Source of the DNA: a bacterium
GTDB lineage: Bacteria > Myxococcota_A > Bradymonadia > UBA7976 > UBA1532
Assembly (NCBI GenBank): GCA_030426085.1
Contig: JAUHYW010000062.1
Span: 1 to 64,000 of the forward strand
Direction: 5' to 3'
Length of the DNA: 64,000 nt
In this document: in pieces, positions 2,184 to 60,716 of the stretch
Position numbering within the stretch: position 1 is the stretch's first letter
Layout of the letters: each line of letters begins with the position of its first letter
The notes under the pieces: generated by a model
The model's database searches: none
What the model saw: only the letters and a program-made list of their open reading frames with translations
Told to the model about the DNA's origin: nothing
Translations under genes and position numbers: made by a program

Positions 2184-2201
2184 GGTACGACGGAGGAGAC
2201 C

Positions 2202-3290: not shown

Positions 3291-3333
3291 GGTGTTAGAC
3301 TGCGCGCCGTTCGGAGGGGAGGCTCGGCAGGGG

Positions 3334-7369: not shown

Positions 7370-7388
7370 ATCGAAAGGAGCCCGCTCG

Positions 7389-8303: not shown

Positions 8304-8306
8304 CCC

Positions 8307-10778: not shown

Positions 10779-10816
10779 GCCGGGCCCCAGGCTCCACTCA
10801 CCTGCGGGAGACGAGC

Positions 10817-12316: not shown

Positions 12317-12364
12317 CGCCTCGGGCGACGGGGATCGGGTGGATCGGACCCCCGGGCGCGAAAG

Positions 12365-12394
12365 TTGCGGCATCTCGGACGGCTCCCGTACCAT
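12365..12394 (+). promoter_or_regulatory. Predicted sigma70-like promoter for the PEGA gene operon
   Basis: TTGCGG (12365-12370), an 18-bp spacer, and TACCAT (12389-12394), about 90 bp upstream of the GTG start at 12482. The match to consensus is moderate. It lies in a 165-bp gap with no other coding content. Confidence 0.35.
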
Positions 12395-12481
12395 GAGGCC
12401 GCTTTTTCGGACGGTCGGAGCGAAGGCGCCGGTGCCGCTGCGCGCCGTGGGCCTCTCGCCGCGATCGGTGGAGGTCGCCCG

Positions 12482-13621
12482 GTGAACCGTGGCTGGCGTA
12501 TCGCAGGTCTCGTCTTCTGTCTGGCGCTCGCCGCGCCGACGCTCACCCTCGCCCAGTCGGCCGACTACGTCGCCGCCAAGCAGCGCGCCTCGGCCGCGTT
12601 CAGCGACGGGCGCTTCGAAGAGGCCGCCGAGTACTTCAAAGAGGCGTTCTCGATCGAGCCCCGGGGCAACCTGCTCTACAACATCGGGGTGTGCTACGAG
12701 AAAGCCAACCGCCCGGAAGAGGCGGTCAAGTTCTACCAACGCTACGTCTCGGCCCTGCCCAACTCGCCCAAGCGGCCGGCGGTGCAGCGCAAGATCGACG
12801 GGCTCAAGTCCCAGCTCCAGGGCCAGTACCAGGAGGTCAACGTCGCCACGTCGCCCCCCGGGGCGGTGGTCTTCGTCGACGACAAGGCCAAGGGCGCGCT
12901 CGGCCGGGCGCCGGTGAGCTTCAAGCTGCTGCCCGGCAGCTACGTGATCATCGCGGAGCTGCCGGGGCACGAGCCGGCCCGCCAGCGCATCGAGCTGACC
13001 GAGGCGGTGCCGGCGATGGTCGATCTGGTGCTCATCCCCAGCGACGAGGTGGGCACGGTCACTTTCATGGTCTCGGAGCGCAACGCCGACGTGATGGTGG
13101 ACGGCCGCCGGGTCGGGCGCAGCCCGATCACCGAGCCGCTGCGGCTGCGGGCCGGCGCCCACGACGTGCTCGTCATGAAGCCGGGCTTTCTGCCCTACAA
13201 GCAGAAGGTCGACGTGCCCGCCGGGGGCGCCAAGCGCATCGACGTGCAGCTCGCCGACGAGACCGGCGGGCTGGCCGACAGCGGCGGCGGCGGGGGCAGC
13301 ATCTGGCCCTGGGTGACGATGGGCGTCGGGGTCGCGGCGGTGGGCGCGGGCGTATTCACCGGGCTGTCGGCCCAGAACCTCTACGACCAGCTCGACGAGA
13401 AGCGGCAGGCGCGGGAGCTCATCGCGCCCCAGGACATCGACACCGGCAACAACCTGGTGCTCTACACCAACCTGGCGTTCGCCGTGGGCGGCGCGGCGAT
13501 CATCGGCGGGCTGACCTGGTGGCTGCTCGAAGACACCGGCCCCGACCGCTCCGGCGGGGTCCAGCTCGGCGGCGGCGCCAGCCAGGACGGGGCGATGATC
13601 CAGCTCATGGGGGCCTTCTGA
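12482..13621 (+). CDS. Secreted TPR and double PEGA-domain protein
   Basis: 379 residues from GTG 12482, chosen because a signal peptide (WRIAGLVFCLALAAPTLTLA) starts there and GGTGGAGGTC lies upstream; an open extension to 12365 adds only unlikely sequence. After the signal come TPR-like helices (AAEYFKEAFSIEPRGNLLYN, NRPEEAVKFYQRY), then two PEGA domains (~120-190 and ~195-260) with PPGAVVFVDD and ADVMVDGRRVGRSP cores. A Gly-rich linker and two membrane helices (IWPWVTMGVGVAAVGAGVF; LAFAVGGAAIIGGLTWWLL) finish the chain. PEGA modules are usually surface/periplasmic protein-binding units in Myxococcota. Its stop overlaps the next start (TGATG), so it is coupled to the lipoprotein and kinase that follow. 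Confidence 0.85.
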   Translation: MNRGWRIAGLVFCLALAAPTLTLAQSADYVAAKQRASAAFSDGRFEEAAEYFKEAFSIEPRGNLLYNIGVCYEKANRPEEAVKFYQRYVSALPNSPKRPAVQRKIDGLKSQLQGQYQEVNVATSPPGAVVFVDDKAKGALGRAPVSFKLLPGSYVIIAELPGHEPARQRIELTEAVPAMVDLVLIPSDEVGTVTFMVSERNADVMVDGRRVGRSPITEPLRLRAGAHDVLVMKPGFLPYKQKVDVPAGGAKRIDVQLADETGGLADSGGGGGSIWPWVTMGVGVAAVGAGVFTGLSAQNLYDQLDEKRQARELIAPQDIDTGNNLVLYTNLAFAVGGAAIIGGLTWWLLEDTGPDRSGGVQLGGGASQDGAMIQLMGAF

Positions 13622-16600: not shown

Positions 16601-17145
16601 ACGTCAACGGGGGCGCGGTGCGGGCCCTCAACACCGCCTTCACCGGCGGGGGGCTGCCGTCCGACGACGTGCGGGCGGTCATCCTCGCCGGCGATCGGCT
16701 GGTCGCCGGCACGTCGGCGGGGGTGGGCATCCTCGACACGGCGGCCAACGCCTGGACCCCCATCGGCGCGAGCAGCCTGCCCAACGTCTCGGTGCTGACG
16801 GTGGCGGCGACCTCGCCCCCGGCCGGCGAGGAGCCGACGCTGTACATCGGCACCGAGGACGGCCTGTTCCACCGGGCGCTCGACGGCAGCGTCATCGCCG
16901 ATTACGACACCTCGTCGGGGCTGCCGGTCAACCGCATCAACGACGTGATGGTGCACCCCGACGGGCGCATCATCGTGGCGACCCCGGCCGGGGTGGCGGT
17001 CAAGTCGGGCGAGGCGCCGTTCGTCAACTACGGCTTCGTCGACGGCCTGCCGGGGGTGGCGGCCTACGAGCTGGCCCTGGACAACGCGGGCCGCATCTGG
17101 GCCCGCAGCGAGGACGGCATCGGGCGGCTGGACGTGCAACCCTGA
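13621..17145 (+). CDS. Lipoprotein with thrombospondin type 3 calcium repeats and a beta-propeller
   Basis: 1174 residues, ATG overlapping the previous stop. The signal ends in a lipobox (ALMLGGC, Cys at ~21), so it is a likely lipid-anchored envelope protein. Residues ~75-260 hold a run of Asp-rich thrombospondin type 3 repeats (DSDGDGLGDVCDPDADGDD, then DRDGDGVPDQDDTCP) with paired Cys, a Ca2+-binding stalk. From ~265 to the end are many ~40-residue blades of the two-component-regulator propeller kind, with repeating GLDVDPEGRQWFTTDRGLTV, LWVATDGGVVRI and VWIGTDGGIGVYG. Such propellers are sensory or protein-binding platforms. No enzyme domain is visible. A Ser/Thr kinase is coupled directly behind, so it may be the extracytoplasmic partner of that pathway. 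Confidence 0.86.
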   Translation: MNTRPLRPLLASLCLPALMLGGCTLDFDEFEPYTEEQPPVVPDGGADFEMYVPPDMDPEPDVIIDMPVVDQDMDGVLDEVDNCPVDANPDQLDSDGDGLGDVCDPDADGDDVLDEVDNCLGLANADQLDLDRDGEGDACDADADGDGLDEAAEEMAGTDPRRADTDGDAILDGDDSCPLRPSRVDFDNDMDGYGDVCDEDDDGDGVRDWADVCPGTPDPEQNPEACAGDRDGDGVPDQDDTCPYQANPPAMEGGPQETPCEPRFASLTYSRSTNVLAPYREGVVAGTYGGALVIDPVAGPTRLTNADGLAGNRIYGLDVDPEGRQWFTTDRGLTVIRPDGFVFSMHADDHDGGPMGRLRGVERGAGALWVSSDAGLNRLDDTGWSLFEGLPAGEVHGLYVDALDRLWVATDGGVVRINAGAVELTLDALPLMGPYTDVVGDGERGVWVVGESGAVRIQPDDAVAPEGPYTGFSVRDIAGRGNDEYLATGGGLRRIDRDGRLLPTGIPRDGTTPPLPSPDLRAISLSAFEDFWVGSAAGLQRIDSYFATYDSALLDGDCATVTRRAGAYVWVGTRQGALLLQADGTFRALENLPGLEVNAIAQLGDQVWIGTDGGIGVYGLDGTPVEQYPRGEGELPDAEVTALEVGARGEVGGEIWIGTDGGGLLRYADGEWSVFTVENAPNEFLSDDIIAVAYGDGRVWIASPLGLSVYDTVEGVFDLPVTRQGGRLPAVPVFDVAVGGGRVFAATAAGVAVRDPDGLWVTLRRQVTGIPNEAGTDGARALAYDGENLWILLDVSRRLEYGSLLRRSPDPAIRDGFELYPPGDAGLPETPATSGVDLTWAEGELSVSYCGNAEAPGGFGLLGGRGLIVEDASTEGLRGEGDQAALTGGPGGQPLVVGQTAEGPVADLIDVERAMPLTLPELEVPPTACGVPVQDGDNLWCVFDGVGFGRRFGNEQWNLGRRDAIPALGEGDLRDIVVQNDTVAWLASAQGVVHVNGGAVRALNTAFTGGGLPSDDVRAVILAGDRLVAGTSAGVGILDTAANAWTPIGASSLPNVSVLTVAATSPPAGEEPTLYIGTEDGLFHRALDGSVIADYDTSSGLPVNRINDVMVHPDGRIIVATPAGVAVKSGEAPFVNYGFVDGLPGVAAYELALDNAGRIWARSEDGIGRLDVQP

Positions 17146-18692
17146 TGAGCGCCCCCCACGCCGGGCGCATCGGGCAACGGGTCGGGGCCTACGTGCTCGA
17201 GCGGCTCATCGGCCGCGGCGGCATGAGCGTCGTCTTCTTCGCCCGCCACGAGGGCACCGGCCGCGGGGCGGCGGTCAAGATCCTGCAGACCGGGCTGCCG
17301 GAGAACATCGTCGCCGGGCACCGGCTCGAGCAGGAAGCCCGGACCATCGCCCGCATCGATCACCCCCACGTCGTGCGCATCTACGACGCCGGCCGCACCG
17401 GCGACGGGCTGCCGTGGTTCGCCATGGAGTACCTGGAGGGCGAGCCGCTCGGCCGGGTCTTCACCCGCCACGGGCGGCTGCCGGTGCCCCGGATGCTCGA
17501 CATCGTGCGCCAGATGCTGGCCGGGCTGGCCAAGGCCCACGCGCTCGACATCGTGCACCGCGACCTCAAGCCGGACAACGTCTTCCTCGTGCGCCGGGAG
17601 GACGGGGCCGACTTCGTCAAGATGCTCGACTTCGGCATCGCCAAGCTCGTCGGCCCGCAGCCCAACGCGGTGGAGTCGGTGGCCGGGGTGGTGCTCGGCA
17701 CGCCGGAGTATCTCTCACCCGAGGTGGCGATGGACGTCGACGTCTCTCCGGCCAGCGACATCTATGCCCTGGGGGTGTTGATGTTCGAGGGGCTGACCGG
17801 GCGGCTGCCGTTCACCGGGCGCAGCCCGACGGTGATCGCCGAGCAGCACTGCTTCGACCCGCCGCCCCGCCCCCGCTCGATCGCGGACGACCTGCCGGTC
17901 GCGGTGGAGGAGATCATCCTGCGCTGTCTGGCCAAGGATCCCGGCGAGCGCTTCCGGGACGCGGCGGCCCTCGACGGGGCCCTGCGCCGGCTCCAGGCGA
18001 GCACCTCGCCCCTGCCGAGCGTCGACCGGGCGCCGAGCGACTCACCGCCCGAGGCCGGTGATCCGCTCGACGAGGTCGAGAGCCGCTTCCGGCGGGTGGC
18101 CGACAAGCGCCCGACGGCGGGGCGGGTCCTCGAGGCGCCCCTGACCGAGCTGGACCGACTGCGGCAGCGCATCGAGGCCCTCGACGCCGAGCGGGAGGAC
18201 GTCGGCCGCCAGCTCGAGGCGGTCGACGGCGAGCTGGCGGTGCACGAGCGCAAGCTGGTGGAGGCGCTGGCCGAGTGCGCCAGCCTCGACGACGAGATCC
18301 GACGGCTGCGGGAGACGCTGCGCGGGCTGGGGCCGCCCGACGGCGAGGACGACGCGGTGCAGCTCGTCTCGGGCCTCGACGCCCGCCGGCCGCCGGAGGG
18401 CGAGGCGCTCGCCCGGCTGCGCCGGCTCGACGAGCGGGCGGCCCGGATCGAGCAGCACGAGGAGCGGCGCAGCGCCCTGATCGATCGCATCGAGGACGTG
18501 GTCGGGCGCCGGGCCCGGCTCGACGCCCGCTGCGCGCGACTCGAGGCCGACCTGCTGCAAGGGCGGGCGGCCGAGACCGGGCGGCTCTCGCGGCTGGGCA
18601 GCCGGCTGGAGGCGGTGCGGGTCGAGCGGGAGATCCTGACCCAGCGGCGGGCCCGGATCCTGGGCCGCCTGCTGCGGCTGACCGCTCGCTGA
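17145..18692 (+). CDS. Hanks-type Ser/Thr protein kinase with long coiled-coil tail
   Basis: 515 residues, ATG overlapping the preceding stop (TGATG). The kinase domain (~15-270) is complete: Gly loop GRGGMSVVFF, Lys in AAVKIL, HRDLKPDNVFL, DFGIAKL and GTPEYLSPE. The pattern is that of the Pkn/PknB group. A Pro/Ser linker leads to ~200 residues of charged coiled coil (from ~305: LDRLRQRIEALDAEREDVGR and similar). No transmembrane helix is seen, so unlike PknB it is cytoplasmic, and the coiled coil may drive dimerisation or scaffolding. It is the last gene of the PEGA/lipoprotein/kinase unit and lies near two FHA proteins, the classic readers of such kinases. Confidence 0.92.
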   Translation: MSAPHAGRIGQRVGAYVLERLIGRGGMSVVFFARHEGTGRGAAVKILQTGLPENIVAGHRLEQEARTIARIDHPHVVRIYDAGRTGDGLPWFAMEYLEGEPLGRVFTRHGRLPVPRMLDIVRQMLAGLAKAHALDIVHRDLKPDNVFLVRREDGADFVKMLDFGIAKLVGPQPNAVESVAGVVLGTPEYLSPEVAMDVDVSPASDIYALGVLMFEGLTGRLPFTGRSPTVIAEQHCFDPPPRPRSIADDLPVAVEEIILRCLAKDPGERFRDAAALDGALRRLQASTSPLPSVDRAPSDSPPEAGDPLDEVESRFRRVADKRPTAGRVLEAPLTELDRLRQRIEALDAEREDVGRQLEAVDGELAVHERKLVEALAECASLDDEIRRLRETLRGLGPPDGEDDAVQLVSGLDARRPPEGEALARLRRLDERAARIEQHEERRSALIDRIEDVVGRRARLDARCARLEADLLQGRAAETGRLSRLGSRLEAVRVEREILTQRRARILGRLLRLTAR

Positions 18693-37651: not shown

Positions 37652-40600
37652 ATGGACATCCTGCCGCCCGGAAGCCTCATCGGAAAGTACCCCGTCACCC
37701 GGCTGATGAGCGCGGGGGGCATGGGCCTGATCTACGAGGCGGTGCACCCGGTGCTCGGCAGCCGGGTGGTCATCAAGACCATCCGCTCCGAGCTGGCCCA
37801 CGATCCGATGATCATCGAGCGCTTCTTCAAGGAGGCCCTGGCCACCAGCCGCATCCGCGATGAGCGGCTGCCCCAGATCTTCGACCAGGATCGGCTCGAC
37901 GACAACTCGCCCTACATCGTGATGGAGTACCTCGAGGGCGAGGATCTGGCGGCCCGCCTCGCCCGGGGGCCGCTGGACTTCGAGTACGCCGCCCGGGTGG
38001 TGCTCGAGATCCTGGAGGTGCTGCACCGGGTGCATCAGCTCGGCATCGTGCACCGCGACCTCAAGCCGCAGAACATCTTCCTCGCCCGCTCCGATCTGCT
38101 CGGCGAGGTGCCCAAGCTGCTCGACTTCGGGGTGGCCCACTTCGTCGGCGAGCAGGCCACCGCGCCGGGCGAGATGATGGGCACCCCGCTGTACATGTCG
38201 CTGGAGCAGGCCGACGCCGGGGGCCGCATCGGGCCGTGGACCGACGTCTTCGCCGCGGGGGTGGTGCTCTACGAGTGCCTCGCCGGGGCCGGGCAGCGGC
38301 CGTGGGGCTCGCCCAACGTGATGGGCTACCTCGCCCGGCTGAAGTCCCGGGCCACCCCCCGCCCGCTGACCGAGCTGGCCCCGATGACGCCGGCCGGGCT
38401 CGCCGAGGCGGTGCACACCGCGCTGGCCATCGAGCCCGGCGACCGCTACCCCGACGCCGACCGCTTCGCCCGGGCCATCGAGCCGTTCGCCCAGCCGCGC
38501 ACCGCGATGTTCAGCCGCTCGCCGGCGGTGGCCTTCGAGGCGACGATCGACGCCTCGGCCCTGACCGGGGCCGCCTTCGGCGTGGGCACGACCCCCGCCC
38601 GCACCGACGACACCATCGTCGAGCCGTCGGCCCGCAGCCGGGCCTCGCGGACGCCGGCCCGCATGCGCACGATGACCACCGCCGCGCTGCAGAAGCTGCA
38701 CCGGCGGCTGGCCCTGCTGGGCCCCGAGCGGGCCTCGCCGCTGCGGGTGGACCGGCTCAAGGCCGGCGAGCGGCGCCACGTCACCCTGCTGGCGCTCACG
38801 ATCCACATCCAGAGCTCGCTGCCCGAGAGCGAGCCCGAGGACTTCGATGCGGTGGCCGATCAGGTCTTCGAGGTCTTCCAGCGGGTGCTGGTGCGGGCCG
38901 ACGCCCACGTCGAGCCGCCGGTGGGCTGGTCGCTCATCGCCGCCTTCGGCCACGAAGAGACCCGGGAGGACGACGCCGAGCGGGCGGTGGCCGCCGCCCG
39001 GGCGCTCATCTCGCAGCAGCGGGCGGTGGACGAGGCGCTGGGGGAGTACGGCTACGGCCTGAGCCTGCGGGTCGGGCTGCACTCGGGCTTCGTGACCCGC
39101 ACCGCCCGCGGCGGGCGGGACGTGGTCACCGGGGACACCGCCGAGGTCGCCCGCCACCTGGTGCTCGCCGCCCCGATCAACGGCATCTGCATCAGCCGCG
39201 AGACCTGCGCCATCGTCGCCGCGCAGTACCACTGGCGCCCGATGGGCCCGGTGGAGGTCAAGGGGCGCCCCCGGCCGGTGCAGGCCTACGAGATCATCCG
39301 GGACGGGCTGTCGACGGACGCCCGCACCCGCCCCGGCGCCGCCCGGGCGTTCGTGGGCCGGGCCGACGTCATCGAAGCCCTCGAGATGGAGTACCTGCTC
39401 GCCTCGGTGCAGTCGGGCGAGGTGCGGCTGGTGCAGCTCGTCGGCCCCCCCGGCGCGGGCAAGTCGCGGGTGCTCGACGAGCTGGTGCGGCGGGTGACCG
39501 AGGACCCCGCCCGCCAGACCCGGGTGGTGCGGGTGCAGCCGGTGGGCCTGCAACCCTACGGCCTGTGGGCCGCGCTGCTGCGCCAGATCCTGTTCGACAA
39601 CGACGTCGGGCGCCCGGTGACCCAGGACGTGCTCGCCCGGCTCAACCAGCTCGCCGGCGCGCTGGACGAGGCCTCGGCCGCCGAGCTGCGCCGACAGACC
39701 GACGTGGCCCACCTGATCCTGGGCCGGGGCGAGATCGAGGCCCCCGAGCAGTCCGACCCCGAGGTCTTCGGGGGCCGCATCCGCTCGCTGCTGGCGCTGA
39801 CCCTGACCGCCGCCGGCCGGCGCACCGCCCGCATCTTCGGGCGGCCGCTGGTGCTCGTCTTCGACGACCTGCACCGGGCCGACTCGGCCAGCCTGGAGCT
39901 GCTCAAGGCCATCCCGGGCATGATCCGGGACGATCAGCCGCCGCTGTTCCTGCTCGGGGGGCGGGCGACGGCGGTCCGCCCCGCGGAGTGGGTCCAGACC
40001 CGCGAGCTGCCGCTCGGCCCGCTCGCCGAGGCCGAGGTCGACCAGCTCATCGACGACCTGGCCGGGGTGCACCCGGTCTCGGACGCGGTGCGGGAGCTGG
40101 TCCGGGGTCGGGCCGGCGGCAACCCGCTCTTCATCGAAGAGCTGGTGCAGATGCTGCGCACCCGGCGGCAGCTCGACGCCGACGAGGCGGCCCTGGCCGA
40201 TCTGGCCCCGCCGGGCTCGCTCTACGGGCTGCTGCTCTCCCGGCTCGAGCGGCTGCCCGGCGAGCTGCGCAGCGCGGTGCAGTGGCTGTCGATCGCCGGC
40301 CCCGAGGTGCGGGCGGCGGTGTGGCAGGCGGTGGCCGGCGGGCTGTCGAGCCAGCGCGACGTGCGGCTCTCGCCCCGGGAGGAGCTCGACGCGCTGTGCG
40401 ACCAGGGCGTGCTCGTCGTCGGCGAGGACGAGGGGGTCTACCGTTTCCGGCAGCAGCTCCTGCGGGACGCGGTGTACGGCACGGTGCTGGCCCACAACCG
40501 GCGGCTGCTGCATCTGCGCTACGCCGAGGCGATCGAGGGGCTCGCCGAGCGGCCCGACGCCGAGGCGCTCAACCGGCTGCTGTACCACTACAGCCACACC

Positions 40601-41752
40601 GACCGGGACGCGAAGACCGTCGACTGCGCCCGCCAGGTGGGCCGGCGGCGGCTGGCGCTGGCGGCCCACGCCGAGGCGCTGTCGGCGCTTCAGCTCGCGG
40701 TCATGCTCCAGGATCGGCTCGACCCGCCCGACCCGGCGGCGGCGGCGACGACGCTGCTCGATCTGAGCAAGGCGCTGTTCTACCAGGGGCGCCTCGAAGA
40801 CAGCGCCGGGCGCGCCGCCGAGGCGCTGGCGCTGGTGCCGCCCGAGGCCGACACCCTCGCCGCCCGGGCCCACGCGTCGGTGGCCCGGGCCCGGCAGTAC
40901 ACCGGGGCCTGGGAGGCCGCGCTGACCCACCTCGAGCAGGCCGAAGAGCTCTACGCCCGCGGGGGGCGCCCGGCGGACGCCGCCCGGACCCGCTGCATGC
41001 GGGCGTTCGTCATCCGCTCGATGGGCGGCTCGCTGGAGGACGCGCTGGACCTCGCCCGCTCCGGCTGGGCGGTGCTCACCGAGCGCAACCCCTCCCCGGC
41101 CTCGGTGGTGCGGGCGGGGCACGACCTGGGCAACATCCTGCGCGACCTCGGTCGCCACCGGGAGGCGCTGGCGGTCTTCGACCACGCGATCGAGATCGGG
41201 GAGCAGGCCGGCGGCGGCGGGCCCTACGCCCGGCTGCCGTGGGTCCAGGCGTGCCGCTCGGGGCGGGCGATCGACCTCGCCGCGCTCGGCCGGCTCGGCG
41301 AGGCCATCGAAGAGCAGCGGCAGGTCTACGCCCACGCGGTCCAGATCCGCCACCGGGTGGCCCAGGCGGTCTCGAGCTTCCACCTCGCCCGCCACCTGGC
41401 CGACAAGGGCGACGCCGAGGCCGCCCGGGAGATGGCCGAGACCTCGCTGGAGGTCTGCGGCGAGATCGGCATGCCCGGGCGGGCGATGAAGGCCCGGCTG
41501 CTGCTCGCCCGGCTCGCCGACGACCCCGACACCGAGTACAAGCACCTCTCGGCGGCCGAATTCCTCGCCCGCGACCGGGGCGACGGCCCGTGGTTCGACC
41601 GGACCATCGAGCCGCTCGTGCGCCTGCTGCGCCGGCAGGGGGACGCCGCCCGGGCCACCGCCCTGATCACCGAGGCCCGCCGGCGGGCGGCGGTCTCGGG
41701 GGACGACGCGCTGGCGGCGAAGGCGGCGGCCCTGGCCCTGGAAGAACCGTGA
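37652..41752 (+). CDS. Ser/Thr kinase - cyclase-like - AAA ATPase - TPR multidomain regulator
   Basis: 1366 residues from ATG 37652. A Hanks kinase domain (~10-280) has GLIYEAVHPVLGSRVVIKTI, HRDLKPQNIFL and DFGVAHF, with activation-loop end MSLEQ. Next (~372-548) is a class III cyclase-like fold (RVGLHSGFV, VVTGDTAEVARHL), but the first metal-Asp motif reads LLALTIHIQ, so it should not make cyclic nucleotide. Then a predicted STAND/AAA_16-type ATPase: FVGRADVIEALE, Walker A GPPGAGKS (~598), Walker B LVFDDLHRADSAS. The C-terminal ~400 residues are TPR-like repeats. This architecture is common in Myxococcota and likely integrates a protein signal; the ligand is unknown. An AT-rich TATATGGTAAAT at 37598-37609 may be its promoter core. 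Confidence 0.93.
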   Translation: MDILPPGSLIGKYPVTRLMSAGGMGLIYEAVHPVLGSRVVIKTIRSELAHDPMIIERFFKEALATSRIRDERLPQIFDQDRLDDNSPYIVMEYLEGEDLAARLARGPLDFEYAARVVLEILEVLHRVHQLGIVHRDLKPQNIFLARSDLLGEVPKLLDFGVAHFVGEQATAPGEMMGTPLYMSLEQADAGGRIGPWTDVFAAGVVLYECLAGAGQRPWGSPNVMGYLARLKSRATPRPLTELAPMTPAGLAEAVHTALAIEPGDRYPDADRFARAIEPFAQPRTAMFSRSPAVAFEATIDASALTGAAFGVGTTPARTDDTIVEPSARSRASRTPARMRTMTTAALQKLHRRLALLGPERASPLRVDRLKAGERRHVTLLALTIHIQSSLPESEPEDFDAVADQVFEVFQRVLVRADAHVEPPVGWSLIAAFGHEETREDDAERAVAAARALISQQRAVDEALGEYGYGLSLRVGLHSGFVTRTARGGRDVVTGDTAEVARHLVLAAPINGICISRETCAIVAAQYHWRPMGPVEVKGRPRPVQAYEIIRDGLSTDARTRPGAARAFVGRADVIEALEMEYLLASVQSGEVRLVQLVGPPGAGKSRVLDELVRRVTEDPARQTRVVRVQPVGLQPYGLWAALLRQILFDNDVGRPVTQDVLARLNQLAGALDEASAAELRRQTDVAHLILGRGEIEAPEQSDPEVFGGRIRSLLALTLTAAGRRTARIFGRPLVLVFDDLHRADSASLELLKAIPGMIRDDQPPLFLLGGRATAVRPAEWVQTRELPLGPLAEAEVDQLIDDLAGVHPVSDAVRELVRGRAGGNPLFIEELVQMLRTRRQLDADEAALADLAPPGSLYGLLLSRLERLPGELRSAVQWLSIAGPEVRAAVWQAVAGGLSSQRDVRLSPREELDALCDQGVLVVGEDEGVYRFRQQLLRDAVYGTVLAHNRRLLHLRYAEAIEGLAERPDAEALNRLLYHYSHTDRDAKTVDCARQVGRRRLALAAHAEALSALQLAVMLQDRLDPPDPAAAATTLLDLSKALFYQGRLEDSAGRAAEALALVPPEADTLAARAHASVARARQYTGAWEAALTHLEQAEELYARGGRPADAARTRCMRAFVIRSMGGSLEDALDLARSGWAVLTERNPSPASVVRAGHDLGNILRDLGRHREALAVFDHAIEIGEQAGGGGPYARLPWVQACRSGRAIDLAALGRLGEAIEEQRQVYAHAVQIRHRVAQAVSSFHLARHLADKGDAEAAREMAETSLEVCGEIGMPGRAMKARLLLARLADDPDTEYKHLSAAEFLARDRGDGPWFDRTIEPLVRLLRRQGDAARATALITEARRRAAVSGDDALAAKAAALALEEP

Positions 41753-41871: not shown

Positions 41872-43002
41872 ATGGCCGCCCCCGGATTCGACCCCCAGGC
41901 GATGCGCGCGTTCGGCGCCCTGATCGCCCGCATGATGCGCGGCGAGGCGCTGACCCGCGAGGCGTCCCGCGACGCCTACCGCCAGATCTATCGCCACGAG
42001 CAGCCCGAGCTGCAGCAAGGGGCGTTCATCGCGGCCCACAAGGCCAAGGGCGAGACCGTCGACGAGCTGGTCGGGCTGACCGAGGCCCACTGCGAGGAGT
42101 GGACCCGCTGCTTCGCCCGCACGGTGAAGGCCGACCGGCCGCACGTCGGCATCGTCGGCGTGGGCATGGACAGCCTCAAGACGTTCAACATCTCGTCCAC
42201 CTCGGCGGTCGTCGCCGCCGCCTGCGGGGTGCCGGTGCACAAGGTCGGCGCCCCGGGCATGACCAGCATCACCGGCTGCGCCGACGCCTTCATGCTGTGG
42301 GGGGTCGACGGGCAGGGGCCGCTCGACAAGCAGATCTCGGCGGTCGAGCAGGTGGGGCTGGGCTTCACCACCCCGGTCACCCCGCACCTCAAGCACATGG
42401 GCATCGGGCGGGTGCTCAGCCAGCTCCGCATCCCGACCTCGATGCACCTCGCCGGGCCGCTCGACCAGCACAGCGGCGAGCGGCACAAGATCGTGGGCGT
42501 GCCCCGGCCGGACTACGTCGACCTCATCGGGCAGGTGCTCGCCGGGCTCGACTTCTACGAGCGGGCGCTGGTGCCCTGCGGCGGGGTCGACGCGCTGCCC
42601 GGGCGCTACATCGACGAGTTCAGCAGCCTCGGCCCCACCGAGATCGCCGAGCTGAAGCCCGACGGCAGCGTCGAGCGCTACACCCTGCGCCCGGAGGACG
42701 TCGGCCTCGCGGTCGGCGACCCGAAGGCGGTCGAGAGCGCCGACACCCGGGAGGCCAACGCCCGCCTGGGCGCGCTCATCATCGCCGGCCGGGGCAACGA
42801 CGCCCAGACCGACCTGTGCGCCTACAACGCCGCCGCGGCGCTGGTCGTGCTCGGCGAGGAGCCCGACTGGAAGCCGGCGATCGAGCGATCCCGCGAGGCG
42901 ATGAAGAGCGGCGCGGCGCTGGCGAAGCTGCGGGCGCTCATCGAGCACCAGAACCGCGATCCGGCCGCCGGGCTGGCGACGCTCGACGCGCTGCTGGCCT
43001 GA
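41872..43002 (+). CDS. Divergent anthranilate phosphoribosyltransferase (TrpD)-family protein
   Basis: 376 residues from ATG 41872, with CCAGGAGGACCC upstream. The TrpD/glycosyltransferase-3 fold is clear: N-terminal helices (ALIARMMRGEALTREASRDA, QQGAFIAAHKAKGET), a PRPP-site-like GVGMDSLKTFNISSTSAV, and IDEFSSLGPTEIAEL, which keeps the metal-binding Asp-Glu. Two key blocks are changed: the G-T-G-G-D loop reads GVGMD, and K-H-G-N-R reads KVGAPGMTS, where anthranilate and PRPP are normally contacted. No trp genes are nearby. A new acceptor, or loss of the classic activity, is likely. It is followed 4 bp later by the diiron-protein gene, so it shares that operon rather than a tryptophan pathway. 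Confidence 0.85.
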   Translation: MAAPGFDPQAMRAFGALIARMMRGEALTREASRDAYRQIYRHEQPELQQGAFIAAHKAKGETVDELVGLTEAHCEEWTRCFARTVKADRPHVGIVGVGMDSLKTFNISSTSAVVAAACGVPVHKVGAPGMTSITGCADAFMLWGVDGQGPLDKQISAVEQVGLGFTTPVTPHLKHMGIGRVLSQLRIPTSMHLAGPLDQHSGERHKIVGVPRPDYVDLIGQVLAGLDFYERALVPCGGVDALPGRYIDEFSSLGPTEIAELKPDGSVERYTLRPEDVGLAVGDPKAVESADTREANARLGALIIAGRGNDAQTDLCAYNAAAALVVLGEEPDWKPAIERSREAMKSGAALAKLRALIEHQNRDPAAGLATLDALLA

Positions 43003-43006
43003 GCCG

Positions 43007-43852
43007 ATGACGGGGCGATCCACCGGCGCGGTGACCCTCGAGTGGGCCCGGGTCGCCGACGACGAGGTGATCGTGGCGTCCGCCGAGAAGGCGTGGCTGC
43101 ACCGGCCCGATCCGATCGCGGCCCACGACGTCTTCGCCGCGCCGATGACCGGGCCCGGGCGGCTCGAGACCACCGAGAGGCTGCTCGAGGGGGCCATCGG
43201 CGCCGGCCTGCGCGCCGCCCGGCTCGCCGCCGGCCCGATCGAGCCGCCGCCGCTGACCCCCGAGCGCTGGGTCTGGCGGCTGTGCGGCCTGTACCACATG
43301 ACCACCCGCACCCCGGCCCTGCTCGCCGAGGCCGAGGCGAAGTTCCGGGCCGCCGGGCGCCCGGCCCTGGCCGCCTGGGCCGCCGACCGCCGGCGGGAGG
43401 AGACCGGCCACGACCGACTCGCCCTGCGCGATCTGGCGGCCCTGGGCTTCGACGGCCCGGCGCTGGTGGCCCGGGTGCACCCGCCCAACGCGAAGGCGAT
43501 GGTGGCCCTCTTCGCGGCGGCGGTGCGCGACGCGGCGGTGCCCCTGGGCGCGCTGGCCTACGCCCACACCGTCGAGCGGCTGGCGCTGCGCTTCGGCCGG
43601 GCCTACATCGATCGGGTGCGGGCGGCGCTGCCGAAGGGGGTCGACGCGACCCGCTGCCTGCGGGTGCACAGCGCGGTGGGCAGCGACGCGGCGCACGTCC
43701 GGGACAACGTCGTGGTGGTCGCCGGGCTGCCCGCCGCCGAGCGGATCGCGTGCGCGCTTGCGTGTCGGCGGATCGCGCGCGTATCATCGACCCCGCCCGC
43801 AGGCGGGTACCGTACTCAGGCTGATCTGGAGTCGATGTTCGGCCGCGGGTGA
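43007..43852 (+). CDS. Heme-oxygenase-like diiron protein (HDO superfamily candidate)
   Basis: 281 residues, ATG 4 bp after the TrpD-like stop. It is all-helical with a spaced set of possible iron ligands: Glu132 and His135 (RREETGHDRL), Glu190 (HTVERLAL), and His221, Asp227, His230 (HSAVGSDAAHV), with an early acidic residue from the 105-110 helix. This E/E-xx-H ... E ... H-x5-D-xx-H order is that of heme-oxygenase-like diiron oxidases and relatives (PF14518-like), which oxidise amino-acid or fatty substrates. No signal peptide. The last ~25 residues are a basic, Pro-rich tail. It sits between the TrpD-like gene and an NHLP peptide, a context that suggests a modifying enzyme. The substrate is unknown. 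Confidence 0.72.
   Translation: MTGRSTGAVTLEWARVADDEVIVASAEKAWLHRPDPIAAHDVFAAPMTGPGRLETTERLLEGAIGAGLRAARLAAGPIEPPPLTPERWVWRLCGLYHMTTRTPALLAEAEAKFRAAGRPALAAWAADRRREETGHDRLALRDLAALGFDGPALVARVHPPNAKAMVALFAAAVRDAAVPLGALAYAHTVERLALRFGRAYIDRVRAALPKGVDATRCLRVHSAVGSDAAHVRDNVVVVAGLPAAERIACALACRRIARVSSTPPAGGYRTQADLESMFGRG
43758..43787 (+). promoter_or_regulatory. Predicted promoter for the NHLP peptide gene
   Basis: TTGCGT (43758-43763), 18-bp spacer, TATCAT (43782-43787, 5/6 to consensus), lying inside the 3' end of the diiron-protein gene. It would give the peptide its own transcript with a ~90-nt leader. Confidence 0.45.
43792..43807 (+). other. GC-rich hairpin in the NHLP leader
   Basis: Arms CCCGCC (43792-43797) and GGCGGG (43802-43807) with a CGCA tetraloop. 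It starts at the predicted transcription start and could protect the 5' end of the RNA or pause the polymerase. Confidence 0.35.
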
Positions 43853-43881
43853 ACCAGACGGGTAGACCGAAGGAGGGAGAC

Positions 43882-44136
43882 ATGGGTGCCAAGGTCGATG
43901 CGTGGCGCGAGATCACGAAGCGAAGCTGGGAAGACGGCGACTTCAAGCAGAAGCTGCTCGCCAACCCCGACGCCGTGCTCGAGGAGTACGGCATCAACCG
44001 CCGCCCGGGGGTGAACTACCGGATCGTCGTCGACGAGCCCGGCGTGCGCACCCTGGTGCTCCAGCAGCCCGAAGGCAGCGTGGCGGTCGAGGAGGTCGGC
44101 GTCGAGCCGCTCTCCGACGAGAACCCCGGCTTCTGA
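43882..44136 (+). CDS. NHLP (nitrile hydratase-like leader) family small peptide
   Basis: 84 residues from ATG 43882, with a near-perfect ribosome site (GAAGGAGGGAGAC), stronger than any neighbour's. The body matches the NHLP leader domain derived from nitrile hydratase alpha: ITKRSWEDGDFKQKLLANPD, AVLEEYGINRRPGVNYRIVV and an end TLVLQQP. In other bacteria such leaders guide enzymes to a core peptide. Here the ~20-residue remainder (EGSVAVEEVGVEPLSDENPG plus Phe) has no Cys, no Thr, only two Ser and no Gly-Gly cut site, so a thioether- or azole-type product is unlikely; an acid- or Asn-directed change, or a non-RiPP carrier role, is possible. It is encoded right after the diiron enzyme. Confidence 0.78.
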   Translation: MGAKVDAWREITKRSWEDGDFKQKLLANPDAVLEEYGINRRPGVNYRIVVDEPGVRTLVLQQPEGSVAVEEVGVEPLSDENPGF

Positions 44137-44184: not shown

Positions 44185-46236
44185 TCAGGCCCCCGCCTCG
44201 GCGGCCCCGTCTCCGGTCGCCGCCTCCGTCTCTTTCTCGGCGGCCGCCGCGACCGCCGCCCGCCCCCGCGTCACGACCGCCCGGCACAGGCTGCGCCCCC
44301 GGGGCACGCCGAGCCCGGTGGCCGGATCCCACCCGTTGGCCGCCTGAAACCCGGGCAGCTCCACCGACACCTGCACCGTCGCCGCCGGGTTGAACGGGTC
44401 GGCCTGGGCCACCGAGCGCAGGGTGACGTCGGTCCGCCCGGCGACGATGTCCCGGAAGGGCCGGCCGGTGCGGGGCCCGCCGGCCTCGTCGGCCACCGCG
44501 TAGAGCATCGGGTTGGCGCAGCCCAGCCGCCGCAGCCCCGCTGCCCGCCGGGCCTGATTGAGCCGGGCGAGCAGCGCGGCCCAGATCGGGGCGGCCACGC
44601 TCGTGCCCCCGGCGAAGTCGACGTACTTGATCGCCCCGCCGGCGTTCTGATCCCGGATCACCGCCCGGTAGCCCCGGGCGGTCGGCGGCCGGCCGGGGCT
44701 CCGCTGCACCGAGTCGGTCACCGCGGCCAGCGAGACGTCGGGCACCCCCCGGCCGAAGGGCAGCACCGGCGGGGCGTGCGGCCCGCGGAAGTAGGCCAGC
44801 CGCCGGTTGGGCCAGCTCGACTCGTTGGGGAGCTGGAAGCTCTGGTAGTCGGGGATGGGCACCTCGGTGCTGAACCCGCCGCCGCCCGCCATGCGGGAGA
44901 CCCGCGACAGGCCGCCCCGCTCGAAGCCGGGGGGCAGGGGCCCGCTCCAGGCCAGCTCGGTCAGCGGGTCGCGCTCGGCGATCATCGTGCCGCCCACCGC
45001 CAGCACCCGCTCCTCGCAGGCGGGGAACACCGCGCTGGGCCACGGCGCGGCGGGCACCCCGTTGACCCCGATCACGCTGGTGCGGGGCACGCCGTCGTAG
45101 CACCCCCAGTTGCCCGCCGCGGCGACCACCGAGATGCCGAGCAGCGCGCACAGGTCGAGCAGGCCGGTGATGATGCGCGAGCCGTACGAGGCGTAGTAGT
45201 CCCGCTCGGGGGTCAGCCAGGCGGTGACCGCGATCGTGGGGCTGTACTCGGCGTCGTGGATGATGCCCATCAGCCACGCCGACCACTTGTCGGCGATGAG
45301 CGTGCGATCCATCACGTAGCACACGATCTCGGCGCCGGGGGCCATCGCGCCGGCCCACTGCACGCCCATCGCGGCCTCTTTGGCCTCCATCATGCTGGCC
45401 GCGCGGGTCGGCGCCGGGCCGATGTGCACCACCTTGGGCTCGCTGCGCTCGATGCCGTGGGCCTCCCAGAACGCGCGGCAGACGGCCATGTCGGGGGCCG
45501 CGTCGAGCAGGAGCAGCGCGATGGTCTCGCCCCGCCCGTCGAGCGGCGCATCGACCAGCGGCCGACCCTCGACGTCGGTGATCGGATCCTCACCCTCGAT
45601 CAGCCCGCTGGCGAAGCCCTCGACCCGCCCCCCGCGCAGGGCGCTGGGGAAGTCGTAGATCCGGGCGATGTCCTCCGGGGCCAGCCCGTTGTCCCAGCCG
45701 GGCCCGTCGGCGTCGGGGGCCGCCGGGCCATCGTCGCCCAGGGCCTCGGCGGCGTTCTGCATCACGAACCCGCTGCCGTCGAGCAGCCCGAGCAGCTTCT
45801 CGGCGTCGCGCAGCACCTGGATGCCCTGCACATAGCCGGCGAGGTGCGGCGGCAGCGGCCAGTCCACCAGCCGCGGGCGGCGGGCGTGGGGCTTGGTCAG
45901 CCAGCGCCGCGCCCGATCGCCGAACGCCGCGCCGAAGGCGGCCCGCGAGCAGCGCAGGAAGATCGCGAGCACCGGGGTCTGCTGCAGCGGGATGGGCTCG
46001 ATGCCCCGCTCGATCAGCCACGCCTTGACCGCCTCCCGACCCTGAGCGGTGGCGTCGGCCGCGGCCGCGCCGTGGGCGGTGTGGGCCACCAGCTCGAAGA
46101 GCGCCTCCCGGGTGAGGTGGGGCTCGATCGAGTCCGGCGACGACAGCCCGTCGGCCCTCGCGCTCAGCTCGGCGGCGTGGTCCGGGGTCCAGTAGAGCGT
46201 CATGAAGACGTCGGCGATCTCGCTGACTGCGCTCAT
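44185..46236 (-). CDS. S53 sedolisin-like protein, probably catalytically impaired
   Basis: 683 residues, ATG with GGGGAGGACGACC upstream. The S53 fold is recognisable: prodomain-like N-terminus, GGTSVAAP with the nucleophile Ser546, and the calcium-site region FRDIVAGR with GWDPATGLG. The other catalytic parts are altered. The Glu-x3-Asp pair reads E287-A-A-M-G291, losing the Asp. The oxyanion G-D-S-G loop reads GNWG, with Asn376 for Asp. There is no signal peptide, although most sedolisins are secreted. It may be a pseudoprotease, or use different residues. It follows fmt by 47 bp on the same strand and is convergent with the NHLP gene, so a role with that peptide is only a suggestion. Confidence 0.82.
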   Translation of the reverse strand: MSAVSEIADVFMTLYWTPDHAAELSARADGLSSPDSIEPHLTREALFELVAHTAHGAAAADATAQGREAVKAWLIERGIEPIPLQQTPVLAIFLRCSRAAFGAAFGDRARRWLTKPHARRPRLVDWPLPPHLAGYVQGIQVLRDAEKLLGLLDGSGFVMQNAAEALGDDGPAAPDADGPGWDNGLAPEDIARIYDFPSALRGGRVEGFASGLIEGEDPITDVEGRPLVDAPLDGRGETIALLLLDAAPDMAVCRAFWEAHGIERSEPKVVHIGPAPTRAASMMEAKEAAMGVQWAGAMAPGAEIVCYVMDRTLIADKWSAWLMGIIHDAEYSPTIAVTAWLTPERDYYASYGSRIITGLLDLCALLGISVVAAAGNWGCYDGVPRTSVIGVNGVPAAPWPSAVFPACEERVLAVGGTMIAERDPLTELAWSGPLPPGFERGGLSRVSRMAGGGGFSTEVPIPDYQSFQLPNESSWPNRRLAYFRGPHAPPVLPFGRGVPDVSLAAVTDSVQRSPGRPPTARGYRAVIRDQNAGGAIKYVDFAGGTSVAAPIWAALLARLNQARRAAGLRRLGCANPMLYAVADEAGGPRTGRPFRDIVAGRTDVTLRSVAQADPFNPAATVQVSVELPGFQAANGWDPATGLGVPRGRSLCRAVVTRGRAAVAAAAEKETEAATGDGAAEAGA

Positions 46237-57104: not shown

Positions 57105-60100
57105 TCACAGCGGATAGAAGATGTTGAGGTGCACCCGCAGGGTCTGGGCCTCGAACGGATCCTGCCGCAGCGGGTAGGCGAGGTCGAGCCGCAGGGGCAC
57201 CTGCCCGGTGACCAGCCACCGCAGCCCGAGGCCGACCGAGGGGTAGAACCGGCCGATGCCCATGCGCCCCCAGTCGGGGGCCACCGCGCCGACGTCGCTG
57301 AAGACCGCCCACCAGAAGTCATCGATGAGGAAGGTCGGGAACCGGGCCTCGACGCTGGCGAGGATCATCGCCTTGCCCCCGATGCGCTGCCGCTCGACGA
57401 GCTGGTCGTCGTCGGCGTCGACCCCCTCGGCGAGCACGTCGCTGCACAGCGGGTCGTCGTTCTGGTCCCGCCCCCGGCAGGCCTCGATGACCGCGTCGCC
57501 GTAGCCCCGCACCGGCAGGGCCACCCCGTCGCCGCCGGCCTTGAAGAAGAAGCCCGACTTGAGATCGGCCTCGCTCTGGTCGGTCTGCACCGCGCCCAGC
57601 CGCAGGGTCGGGGCCACGATGAGCTGCCGCTCGAAGAACGACTGCACGTACTGGCCGGTGATGGTCTCCTTGAACGAGGGCTCGAGCACGAAGTCCTCGA
57701 GCTGGTTGAAGGCGTTGAACACGATCTCGGCCGAGGCGAAGAGCACCCAGCCCCGGGTGGGGTGCAGCGGGCTGTCCCGGCGATCCCAGGTCAGCGTCGG
57801 CTCGAGGGTCACCGACTGGGTGGCGTCGCCGAAGAGCGGCACCTCGTCGTTGCGCTTGAGCCCCCGCCGCTGCTCGATGCGGTAGTCGGTCACCAGGGTC
57901 GCCCGCAGCCCGCGGCCCCAGTCGTCGGGGTAGCTGAGGTTGTAGAAGTCGTAGCCGATGGTCGGGCGGAAGTCGATCACCTGCTCGTAGGCGTCCCGCT
58001 GGCTGGTGCGGCCGGTCTTGTAGGTCGCCTCGACGGTCAGGTCGAGCCGGGTGCCGAAGAGCCGGCGATCCTTGAGGAACGGGCCGGCCTCGAAGACCGT
58101 CTCGTCGTACTCCCCGATGGCGAGCGGGTCGTCGAGCCGGTTGACGAAGTTGAGCCCGGCGCCCACCTCGAGGGCGAGCCCGAACAGGTTGCGGTCGCGG
58201 ATGCTGCCCCCCAGGCTGTAGAGGATGGGCAGCTCGTCCTCGATGGGGGTCGAGTCGATCTGAAGCCCGACGACGAGGTCGGCGAAGCGGTAGTCCCCCT
58301 CCTCGACGGTCACCATCACCGCCGCGTCCCGCCGGTCGGCCCGATCGCCGGGGCGGCGGGTGTCGCTGATGGTCTCCATCTGCACCGCGTCGAAGATGCC
58401 CAGCGAGCGCAGGTTGGCCTGGCTGCGGAAGAGCTGGTCGGTGCCCAGCGGCTGGCCGTCTTCGAACAGCAGCTCGGCGTCGATCACCGAGGTGTCGGTG
58501 ATCAGGTTGCCCTGCAACAGGATGCCGTCGACGTAGGTCTTGGGGCCCAGCGCGCTCTCGAAGGCGACGTCGCGCAGCTTCAGCCCGTAGAGGTTCTCCT
58601 CGGTGCAGTGGTCGGTCGGCCGGGCCCCGAGCGGGGGCGGCGCGCCGGGCGGCGGGGGGCAGACCGGGACCACCTCGGCGTCGATGAAGCCCTGCTGCCG
58701 CCACTGGCGCATCAGGAAGCCGCGCACCGCGTCCAGCTTGCGCCGGTTGAGCCCGGTGGTCTGCCAGTCGAGGGTGTCGTCGACGAAGCCCAGCTCTTCG
58801 AGCAGGTCGTAGGCCTCGTCCCGGGCCTGATCGCCGCCGCCGGCCAGGATCGGGCCCAGGCGCAGGGCGTCGACGGTGGCCCGGGCCCCCTCCTCGAGCT
58901 CGATGCGCAGCACCGCCAGCCGGGGGTCGGGGTCGGGCAGCACCTGATAGCAGATGTGATTGACCGGATCGTCGGTCCACACGTCGAAGATCCGGGTCAT
59001 CGCCGGGCCCATCGCCGGGCCCATCACCCCGCCGTCGCCCGCCGCCTGCTCGGCCCGCTCGGCGGCCCGGATCGCGTCCCGCTCGGCGGGGGTCACCCGG
59101 GCCGGATCACCACAGCGGAAGCGCAGCCCGGGCATGCCCCGGTCGTGGTACAGGTCGCGCACCGCGAGCAGGTCGTTGATGATCCGGGCGGTCTGCAGCA
59201 CGCCGGCCGAGGTGCCGAAGGCGTTGATCACCCCCTCGGGCGCGATGCCCCGGGTCTCCATCACTTCGAAGATCTCGGCGTCGCTCAGCAGGCGGTTGCC
59301 CACGATCTCGACCCGGCGGGCGTAGATCCGGCCGCCCTCGTCGACGGTGTAGGTCACCCGCACCCGGTCGGCCGAGGGCCGCTCCAGCTTCGCCTCGACC
59401 CGCACGTCGTGGCGGGCGATGCCCTGGTAGGCGGCCACGATCGCCGACCGCCCCGACTCGACCTCGGTGTCGTCCACCGCCCCGTTCTCGGCGAAGGTCA
59501 GGACCTCCTCCAGTTCGGCGTCGTCCAGGCTCTCGTTGCCTTCGAACCGCACCTCGAGCCGGGGCCCCTCGTAGACCCGCACCCGGGGGAAGACCCGGTC
59601 GTCCCGCTCGGCGAAGGTCGACTCCAGCCGCACCCGGGCGGTGACCCAGCCCTCCTCCCGGTAGCGGGCCTCGACCTCCTCCAGCTCGTCCTTGAGGTCG
59701 CGCCGGGCGTAGCGCCCGATGCCGAAGATGGCGAACAGATCGCGCAGCATGTCGATGCGCTCGCCGGTGGTCAGCGGCTGCACCACCCGCCAGTAGGGGA
59801 AGGCGGCGTTGCCCTTGACGAGCACCTGCCCGATCTCGGGCTGGCGGCCCTCGTCGACCTGCACCACCACCCGCACGAAGACGTCCCCCGGGCCGTGCCA
59901 CTCGGGCAGGATGCGGACCGCGGTGCCCACGAAGCCCATCTGCTCGTAGAGCGAGACCACCCGGGCCTCCCAGTCGGCGACCCGGACCGCGTCGGCCGGC
60001 TCGAGCGGCAGGCCGTCGCCGGTCGCCGCGCCCTCGGCCCTGGGCGGGAAGCTGCCCCCCCGGCGCAGCGGCAGCCGCTTGCGGATCTCGGTGCGGAAGA

Positions 60101-60716
60101 GCTGGGGGTACAGCCGGCTGGCCCAGCCGACGTACTCCACGTCGAGGTCGGTGATGATGACGTGCCCGGTGGCCACGAAGCGCACCCGCACCGCGCCGGG
60201 GCCGGGCGGCGGGCGGCGGTCGGCGTCCCGGGCGTCCTCCGCCTCGCGCACCGCCTCGGGGTCCTCGGGGTCCACCGCCGGCGCCGGGGGGGCGACGGCC
60301 GGCTCGACCCGCACCGTCAGCGCCCGGAAGAAGCCGGTGCGCTGCAAGCGGACCCAGGCGTCGCTCACCGCCCGGGGGTCGAGCGGCCGGCCGACGTCGA
60401 GCCCGGCCACCCGCGCCAGCACCGCCCGCCGCTCGGGGTCGGTGCACACGTCGGTGGCGCACTCGATGTCCACCGCGTACAGCGGCCGCCCGGCGAAGGG
60501 CAGCGCCGCGTCGCAGGCCATGCGCCGGCGGATGCCCACCAGATCGGCCCCTCCGCCGCTGCGGGAGAACGGCCCCCGCTCGCCCACCGCCCGCCGCCGC
60601 TCGTCCGCCGCGCAGGGGTCGGCCGGGGCCTCGGCCGGGGCCTCGGACGGGGCCTCCTGAGCCGACGCCGGCCCGGCGAGGGCGATCAGGAGCAGCGCGA
60701 GCGCCGGGCGGCCCAT
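57105..60716 (-). CDS. tamA: Omp85-family outer-membrane protein (TamA/BamA-like)
   Basis: 1203 residues, ATG overlapping the tamB stop (TGATG). A signal peptide (LALLLIALAGPASAQ) precedes a Pro/Ala linker and a long series of POTRA-like modules, e.g. VLVKGNAAFPYWRVVQPLTT, VRFEGNESLDDAELEEVLTF and VEIVGNRLLSDAEIFEVMET. The C-terminal ~400 residues are the 16-strand barrel, with the Omp85 lid motif region (GGDGVALPVRGYGDAVIE), RFYPSVGLGLRWL and the terminal FYPL. Omp85 proteins fold and export proteins at the outer membrane. It is larger than E. coli TamA (577 residues) and is joined to tamB, so Tam rather than Bam is the better call. Confidence 0.9.
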   Translation of the reverse strand: MGRPALALLLIALAGPASAQEAPSEAPAEAPADPCAADERRRAVGERGPFSRSGGGADLVGIRRRMACDAALPFAGRPLYAVDIECATDVCTDPERRAVLARVAGLDVGRPLDPRAVSDAWVRLQRTGFFRALTVRVEPAVAPPAPAVDPEDPEAVREAEDARDADRRPPPGPGAVRVRFVATGHVIITDLDVEYVGWASRLYPQLFRTEIRKRLPLRRGGSFPPRAEGAATGDGLPLEPADAVRVADWEARVVSLYEQMGFVGTAVRILPEWHGPGDVFVRVVVQVDEGRQPEIGQVLVKGNAAFPYWRVVQPLTTGERIDMLRDLFAIFGIGRYARRDLKDELEEVEARYREEGWVTARVRLESTFAERDDRVFPRVRVYEGPRLEVRFEGNESLDDAELEEVLTFAENGAVDDTEVESGRSAIVAAYQGIARHDVRVEAKLERPSADRVRVTYTVDEGGRIYARRVEIVGNRLLSDAEIFEVMETRGIAPEGVINAFGTSAGVLQTARIINDLLAVRDLYHDRGMPGLRFRCGDPARVTPAERDAIRAAERAEQAAGDGGVMGPAMGPAMTRIFDVWTDDPVNHICYQVLPDPDPRLAVLRIELEEGARATVDALRLGPILAGGGDQARDEAYDLLEELGFVDDTLDWQTTGLNRRKLDAVRGFLMRQWRQQGFIDAEVVPVCPPPPGAPPPLGARPTDHCTEENLYGLKLRDVAFESALGPKTYVDGILLQGNLITDTSVIDAELLFEDGQPLGTDQLFRSQANLRSLGIFDAVQMETISDTRRPGDRADRRDAAVMVTVEEGDYRFADLVVGLQIDSTPIEDELPILYSLGGSIRDRNLFGLALEVGAGLNFVNRLDDPLAIGEYDETVFEAGPFLKDRRLFGTRLDLTVEATYKTGRTSQRDAYEQVIDFRPTIGYDFYNLSYPDDWGRGLRATLVTDYRIEQRRGLKRNDEVPLFGDATQSVTLEPTLTWDRRDSPLHPTRGWVLFASAEIVFNAFNQLEDFVLEPSFKETITGQYVQSFFERQLIVAPTLRLGAVQTDQSEADLKSGFFFKAGGDGVALPVRGYGDAVIEACRGRDQNDDPLCSDVLAEGVDADDDQLVERQRIGGKAMILASVEARFPTFLIDDFWWAVFSDVGAVAPDWGRMGIGRFYPSVGLGLRWLVTGQVPLRLDLAYPLRQDPFEAQTLRVHLNIFYPL

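Follow-up and report, generated by a model that had tools for sequence, protein, structure and literature searches.

The 64,000-nucleotide stretch of contig JAUHYW010000062.1 analyzed here (the window; contig C149 of a 10.1 Mb source genome in 178 contigs) carries a cassette of three genes on the + strand: a paralogue of the anthranilate phosphoribosyltransferase TrpD (41872-43002, 376 aa), a heme-oxygenase-like dimetal oxidase (HDO; 43007-43852, 281 aa) and a small protein of 84 aa that is a putative precursor peptide (43882-44136). Its conserved C-terminal tail, PLSDENPGF (44107-44133), is the proposed site of modification. The open reading frame calls bear out the original prediction in placing the three genes on one strand at these positions, with gaps of 4 and 29 bp. 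The TrpD-like gene and the peptide gene have ATG starts and strong ribosome-binding sites (AGGAGG and AAGGAGGGAGAC, respectively). Convergent to the peptide gene lies the gene for a 683-aa protein related to the S53 peptidase kumamolisin (44185-46236, - strand).

The TrpD-like protein is, as first proposed, a TrpD relative by PF00591 (E 1e-40) and PF02885 (E 1.6e-13). Against the TrpD equivalog model TIGR01245 it scores 188.4 bits, below the cut-off of 199.05 (its Polyangium homologue reaches 197.6), and a true TrpD encoded elsewhere in the same genome (contig C109) scores 375.1 bits. Alignment with solved and canonical TrpDs shows that the motifs for phosphoribosyl pyrophosphate (PRPP) and Mg are kept: G96-x-G-x-D100, N106-[IV]-[ST]-S109, K124 and D248-E249. 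In all nine homologues K[VP]GAP stands in place of the anthranilate motif KHGNR, and the Arg of the VRxELG position is not Arg; in established TrpD structures, these two positions hold anthranilate. The altered motifs and the separate true TrpD rule out a housekeeping TrpD. Because the PRPP site is kept, the anthranilate pocket is lost and a true TrpD is present, the natural reading of the alignment is a PRPP transferase with a different acceptor; ribosylation, one of the reactions first suggested for this locus, would be compatible with the retained PRPP site.

The assignment of the second gene to the HDOs also stands: its product matches PF14518 at E 2.4e-7, above the cut-off. The candidate metal ligands E132, H135, E190, H221, D227 and H230 (E132-x2-H135 and D227-x2-H230) are invariant in 19 of 19 homologues. 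Compared with 3dde, two extra residues separate H221 from D227. The AlphaFold model (pLDDT 93) returns UndA, TenA, CADD and PolF as Foldseek matches, with a probability of 1.00 and TM scores of 0.53-0.57 against UndA (4wwj). The protein is thus predicted to have both the HDO fold and the three-His/three-carboxylate ligand set typical for these enzymes (PMC13108848).

The third family assignment, a nitrile-hydratase-like leader peptide (NHLP), holds below threshold: residues 8-63 of the 84-aa protein match TIGR03793 at E 6.9e-10 and 38.6 bits, under the cut-off of 50.9, which homologues from Polyangium (55.4 bits) and an acidobacterium (59.2 bits) pass. The N-terminal part differs between lineages. 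It is an NHLP domain in the window's family, Polyangium and the Acidobacteria, and a short stretch with no recognized domain in Nannocystis, Minicystis, Sandaracinus and one family genome, G104; no NCBIfam model in our scan gave these short peptides a name. What persists is the C-terminus. Among 19 aligned small proteins from two phyla, Asp stands at -6 in all 19, Asn, Asp or Glu at -4 in all 19, Gly at -2 and Phe at -1 in 18 each (a GF-COOH end), and Leu at -8 and Pro at -9 in 16 each. The typical form, PL[ST]Dx[N/D]xGF, is kept even where there is no NHLP domain. In a comparison of ten distinct lineages, identity is 54% over the final ten residues and 32% over the remainder of the protein. 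The alignment therefore points to the tail, not the NHLP domain, as the defining feature of the peptide. The domain is dispensable: the peptides of Nannocystis, Minicystis, Sandaracinus and G104, 46-55 residues long, do not have one.

Our main survey covered 284 Myxococcota genomes, with relatives labeled by G-numbers and the window genome as G000. Nine of these genomes matched a strict DNA pattern that covers the tail and its stop codon, six of them exactly at the loci described here; four matched the reversed pattern used as a control. The matches elsewhere (G208, G206 and G056) were discarded: two of them have TGG where a stop codon should stand, and the third, PLCDLDDGF, is no more than chance would produce. 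A supposed link between Phe at -3 and absence of the TrpD-like gene was also dropped, as it is broken by the Acidobacteria, which have Pro at -3 and no TrpD-like gene.

The same survey gave eight strong HDO matches. The original prediction had staked itself on conservation of the trio, and the trio is kept: the order TrpD-HDO-peptide recurs in four other genomes of the window's family (G209, G261, G161 and G242), with identities to the window's proteins of 80-92% in the nearest genome and 35-61% in the others. A fifth relative, G104, has TrpD and HDO genes with a 55-residue peptide lacking the NHLP domain. Comparison of the window with G209, its closest relative, gives dN/dS values of 0.17 for the TrpD-like gene, 0.30 for HDO, 0.31 for the peptide and 0.43 for the S53-like gene; therefore, all four genes are under purifying selection. 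A wider scan with an HDO profile, using one genome per species (~85,000 species), found 18 loci, those outside the family being in Polyangium (4 genomes), Nannocystis (3 genomes, with two loci in Nannocystis exedens), Minicystis, Plesiocystis, a Myxococcaceae metagenome-assembled genome (MAG) and two Acidobacteria. A further search of 277 acidobacterial genomes returned only the one we started from.

This distribution upholds one half of the original prediction and not the other. Peptide modification, one of two roles proposed at the outset, is the best-supported role for the locus; the trio as a natural unit is ruled out, as both the TrpD-like gene and the NHLP domain are clade-limited. The TrpD-like gene occurs only in the window's family and in Polyangium and was not found in Nannocystis, Minicystis, Sandaracinus or the Acidobacteria, and it would therefore encode an accessory step. 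The constant core is the peptide tail and HDO together with a flavoenzyme and an oxygenase of the AspH family and/or the S53-like protein.

Homologous loci contain up to six components: the small protein, HDO, the TrpD paralogue, a CmlS/QhpG-type flavoenzyme, an AspH-family 2-oxoglutarate (2OG) oxygenase and the kumamolisin-like S53 protein. The trio is half of this larger, peptide-centered system. Orthologues of the flavoenzyme occur in seven of the 284 Myxococcota genomes (E<=1e-168; the next best match is at about 1e-64), and AspH orthologues occur in the identical seven. Six of the seven have the TrpD-like gene and likewise six have S53; HDO is in all seven and additionally in Plesiocystis. 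The window's family, with 13 sampled genomes, includes six with all or nearly all components (several carriers being incomplete MAGs) and seven with none, and the carrier of a separate lineage is G178, which we take to be Sandaracinus. An exact coincidence of two sets of seven among 284 genomes has p = 4e-14 if the genomes are treated as unstructured, and the coincidence within the 13 family members (six carriers vs seven non-carriers) has p = 6e-4; phylogeny makes both figures optimistic.

Gene arrangement ties the components together further. In the window genome, the flavoenzyme and AspH genes form a divergent pair on another contig (C173, 9536-11284 and 11379-12101). G209 has the same pair, and in G261 and G161 it is joined by S53; the G242 assembly is fragmented, and there one contig carries both flavoenzyme and S53, and a different one carries AspH. 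S53 adjoins the peptide gene in G000 and G209 but the flavoenzyme in G261, G161 and G242, as well as in Polyangium and Sandaracinus, which shows that genes swap between the two loci. Four Polyangium genomes have all six genes in a span of about 7 kb, and in Sandaracinus S53 and AspH are fused into one protein. We found no description of this six-component set in the open-access literature (subscription-only papers were outside coverage).

Two further loci differ in composition. Nannocystis exedens DSM 71 has two copies of the cluster (L043 and L045), one with S53 and no adjoining AspH and the other with AspH and no S53; the copies possibly complement each other. In acidobacterium 13_1_20CM_3_53_8 (L032, 7343-17436), an NHLP/DYDPGF peptide and HDO lie beside a different oxidoreductase of the flavin adenine dinucleotide type and other genes, which may form a different tailoring set.

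The three partner proteins have recognizable relatives. The nearest solved structures to the flavoenzyme are FasV and CmlS, with QhpG also among the fold matches, and the protein has a conserved KMG..WG segment and a GWIWYxP motif. Its best NCBIfam models include QhpG, LodB and GoxB, and the CmlS halogenase model scores higher (186.7, cut-off 900; QhpG 133.6, cut-off 240), all of them below curated cut-offs. A two-strand, multi-helix domain predicted at its C-terminus resembled a RiPP recognition element (RiPP: ribosomally synthesized and post-translationally modified peptide), and the candidate was set aside because a profile search of solved structures gave no match. AspH is recognized by PF05118 (E 7e-9 in the Sandaracinus fusion) and keeps an invariant His/Asn/Arg core including H123, H171, R181 and H183; its nearest solved relative is L-proline cis-4-hydroxylase (4p7w), an enzyme of free proline. 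The S53-like protein goes unrecognized by Pfam, and its family profile matches kumamolisin at E 4e-54. The catalytic Ser546 and Glu287 are kept and both positions are invariant, but the triad Asp is replaced in 12 of 12 homologues and Asn takes the place of the oxyanion Asp in both the window gene and its G209 counterpart, which makes activity as a plain peptidase doubtful.

We think it probable that a RiPP-type maturation pathway operates here, with the cassette as its peptide-bearing half, the 84-residue protein as substrate and the tail as the part that is altered. As in RiPP loci, an encoded small protein adjoins putative modifying enzymes and this association is conserved across genomes, pointing to a precursor. 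The NHLP-like domain would serve as recognition leader, with a short leader in its place in other lineages, and the last ~9 residues would be the part that is chemically changed. With its dimetal site and O2, HDO would oxidize the tail, the C-terminal Gly-Phe being the most plausible position; an HDO, VarO, has been found inside the thiovarsolin RiPP cluster (PMC6511847), and C-terminal oxidative decarboxylation occurs in the making of mycofactocin from Val-Tyr (PMC7491314) and in cyclopeptide alkaloids (PMC12871766). The flavoenzyme and AspH, encoded at the second locus in the window genome, would add further oxidations, with the invariant Asp at -6 and the Asn or Asp at -4 as natural targets of AspH. 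These assignments, AspH to one of the two acidic or amide positions and HDO to the terminal Gly-Phe, are the ones we favor, each only tentatively. The flavoenzyme may act after HDO; its target is hard to assign because the tail has no Trp and has Tyr only in some lineages. Precedents are QhpG, a flavoprotein that oxidizes a peptidyl residue in building a quinone cofactor (PMC7876137), and BhaC1, a flavoenzyme that works on a peptide C-terminus (PMC9850906). The S53-like protein would bind or release the tail. As a further, lineage-specific step, the TrpD-like enzyme might transfer phosphoribosyl from PRPP onto the modified tail, a proposal we put at somewhat below even; we know of no earlier case in which a TrpD-fold enzyme works on a peptide. 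The near-invariant tail makes a product of fixed role, of the MftA Val-Tyr or PQQ (pyrroloquinoline quinone)/mycofactocin type, more likely than a variable antibiotic. The full proposal, a conserved cofactor- or signal-like small molecule made from the C-terminal DxNxGF by the dimetal oxidase, flavoenzyme and 2OG oxygenase, to which a repurposed TrpD adds phosphoribosyl, is a speculative extension that we consider rather unlikely.

Several observations weigh against this pathway. Classic RiPP signs are absent: the core is conserved, not hypervariable; the window peptide has no Cys and no GG or other leader motif; and no C39/ABC exporter, YcaO, LanB, radical SAM or ATP-grasp protein is encoded among the neighboring genes scanned (whole genomes were not searched). 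One family supplies six of the seven carriers among the 284 genomes, so that their profiles are not independent. The TrpD-like gene is missing from about half of the lineages, and the S53-like protein, without the canonical catalytic Asp, may not be a peptidase. In Myxococcaceae RYN_369 (L033, 2018-2167), the HDO-linked 49-residue peptide keeps D-x-N and ends in TDLNVIL instead of GF, the sole such exception among the 19. In Plesiocystis pacifica (L041, 8965-9801), the HDO homologue (45% identity) is next to two uncharacterized genes, with no recognizable tail peptide, flavoenzyme or AspH at the locus.

Exact conservation at the very C-terminus would also suit a recognition tag: the tail could be a docking tag or carrier end of a small protein whose job is to hold or deliver a small molecule or, as pearlin precursors do, to scaffold its growth at the C-terminus, the encoded residues staying unaltered. 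Pearlin pathways do extend products on a peptide C-terminus and use flavin tailoring enzymes (PMC9850906), but no peptide-aminoacyl-tRNA ligase (LanB-like), ATP-grasp or adenylating enzyme is present among the neighboring genes scanned (whole genomes were not searched), and we regard this explanation as unlikely, while giving it some weight.

The enzymes could instead form an ordinary metabolite pathway, with a free small molecule as the substrate of HDO, the TrpD-like enzyme, the flavoenzyme and AspH, and with the small protein as a structural or regulatory subunit. Characterized HDOs mostly use fatty or amino acids (PMC13108848), and the nearest solved relative of AspH, noted above, fits the same pattern. 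This explanation has to account for a small protein that stays beside HDO or the TrpD-like gene and keeps only its tail, the N-terminal part being an NHLP domain in some lineages and a short stretch in others, which would be unusual for a structural subunit; we find it improbable. That the genes are unrelated chance neighbors and the TrpD-like protein a degenerate TrpD is very improbable: its score lies just under the equivalog cut-off (188 vs 199 bits) and it is clade-limited, but gene order is kept in several genera and rearranged but still linked elsewhere, purifying selection on the TrpD-like gene is strong (dN/dS 0.17), a separate housekeeping TrpD is present, and the co-occurrence data already contradict it.

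Directly upstream of the TrpD-like gene, the window encodes a Ser/Thr kinase-cyclase-AAA-TPR protein (37652-41752, + strand; assigned by Pfam and synteny). G104 and G242 likewise have it upstream of the TrpD-like gene and G261 has it near the locus, but G209 does not have it there; it may be a regulator that controls the pathway. Elsewhere, the window has a run of genes resembling a contractile injection system (1527-9890: LysM tube protein, GPD hub, gp25 baseplate wedge, Baseplate_J and Tail_P2_I), followed directly by FHA, FHA-VWA, TPR-PEGA, thrombospondin-3/propeller and Ser/Thr kinase genes (10011-18692), and a gene for a large Omp85/POTRA outer-membrane protein of 1203 aa (57105-60716, - strand).

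If the RiPP-type pathway proposed above is correct, it represents a new family in which three different types of oxygen-activating enzyme and, in some lineages, a repurposed anthranilate phosphoribosyltransferase act on one near-invariant tail, and it would show that the TrpD fold can exchange acceptor specificity with its PRPP chemistry kept. Antibiotic RiPPs have variable cores; here two phyla share the tail although their leaders are entirely different, which speaks for one defined molecule whose role is fixed. The carriers include cultured myxobacteria (Polyangium, Nannocystis and Minicystis), which makes the proposal testable.

Several known systems resemble this one in part. NHLP/proteusin precursors (TIGR03793) likewise place a nitrile-hydratase-alpha-like N-terminal domain on a small protein beside oxidative enzymes, but the window peptide is below the cut-off and has neither GG nor Cys, its core is conserved rather than variable, and its short homologues dispense with the domain. 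The thiovarsolin cluster shares an HDO in a RiPP setting (PMC6511847), whereas no YcaO/TfuA, ATP-grasp or amidinotransferase gene adjoins the genes here. QhpG, LodB, GoxB and BhaC1 are flavin enzymes that oxidize residues on a peptide or protein; the flavoenzyme here differs in falling below curated cut-offs, in scoring higher with the CmlS model and in facing a tail without Trp. TrpD shares its family and PRPP/Mg residues with the TrpD-like protein, which is set apart by the replaced KHGNR and Arg, the sub-cut-off equivalog score and its status as a paralogue of a separate housekeeping TrpD. The S53-like protein resembles kumamolisin/sedolisin in a full-length profile match that includes the pro-domain region, in the catalytic Ser and Glu and in the C-terminal TGLG region, and departs from them in the triad Asp, missing in 12 of 12, and in the oxyanion Asn of the window gene and G209. 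Mycofactocin (MftA-F) and PQQ differ in their unrelated enzymes, in the radical SAM enzyme and MftB-like chaperone that have no counterpart among the genes examined here, and in a core ending in VY, not GF; they are alike in having a short, near-invariant C-terminal core in an otherwise variable peptide accompanied by oxidative enzymes, to which mycofactocin adds a sugar-transferring enzyme. The RiPP-type organizing principle is known; the enzyme set, the tail and the presumed recruitment of TrpD appear to be new.

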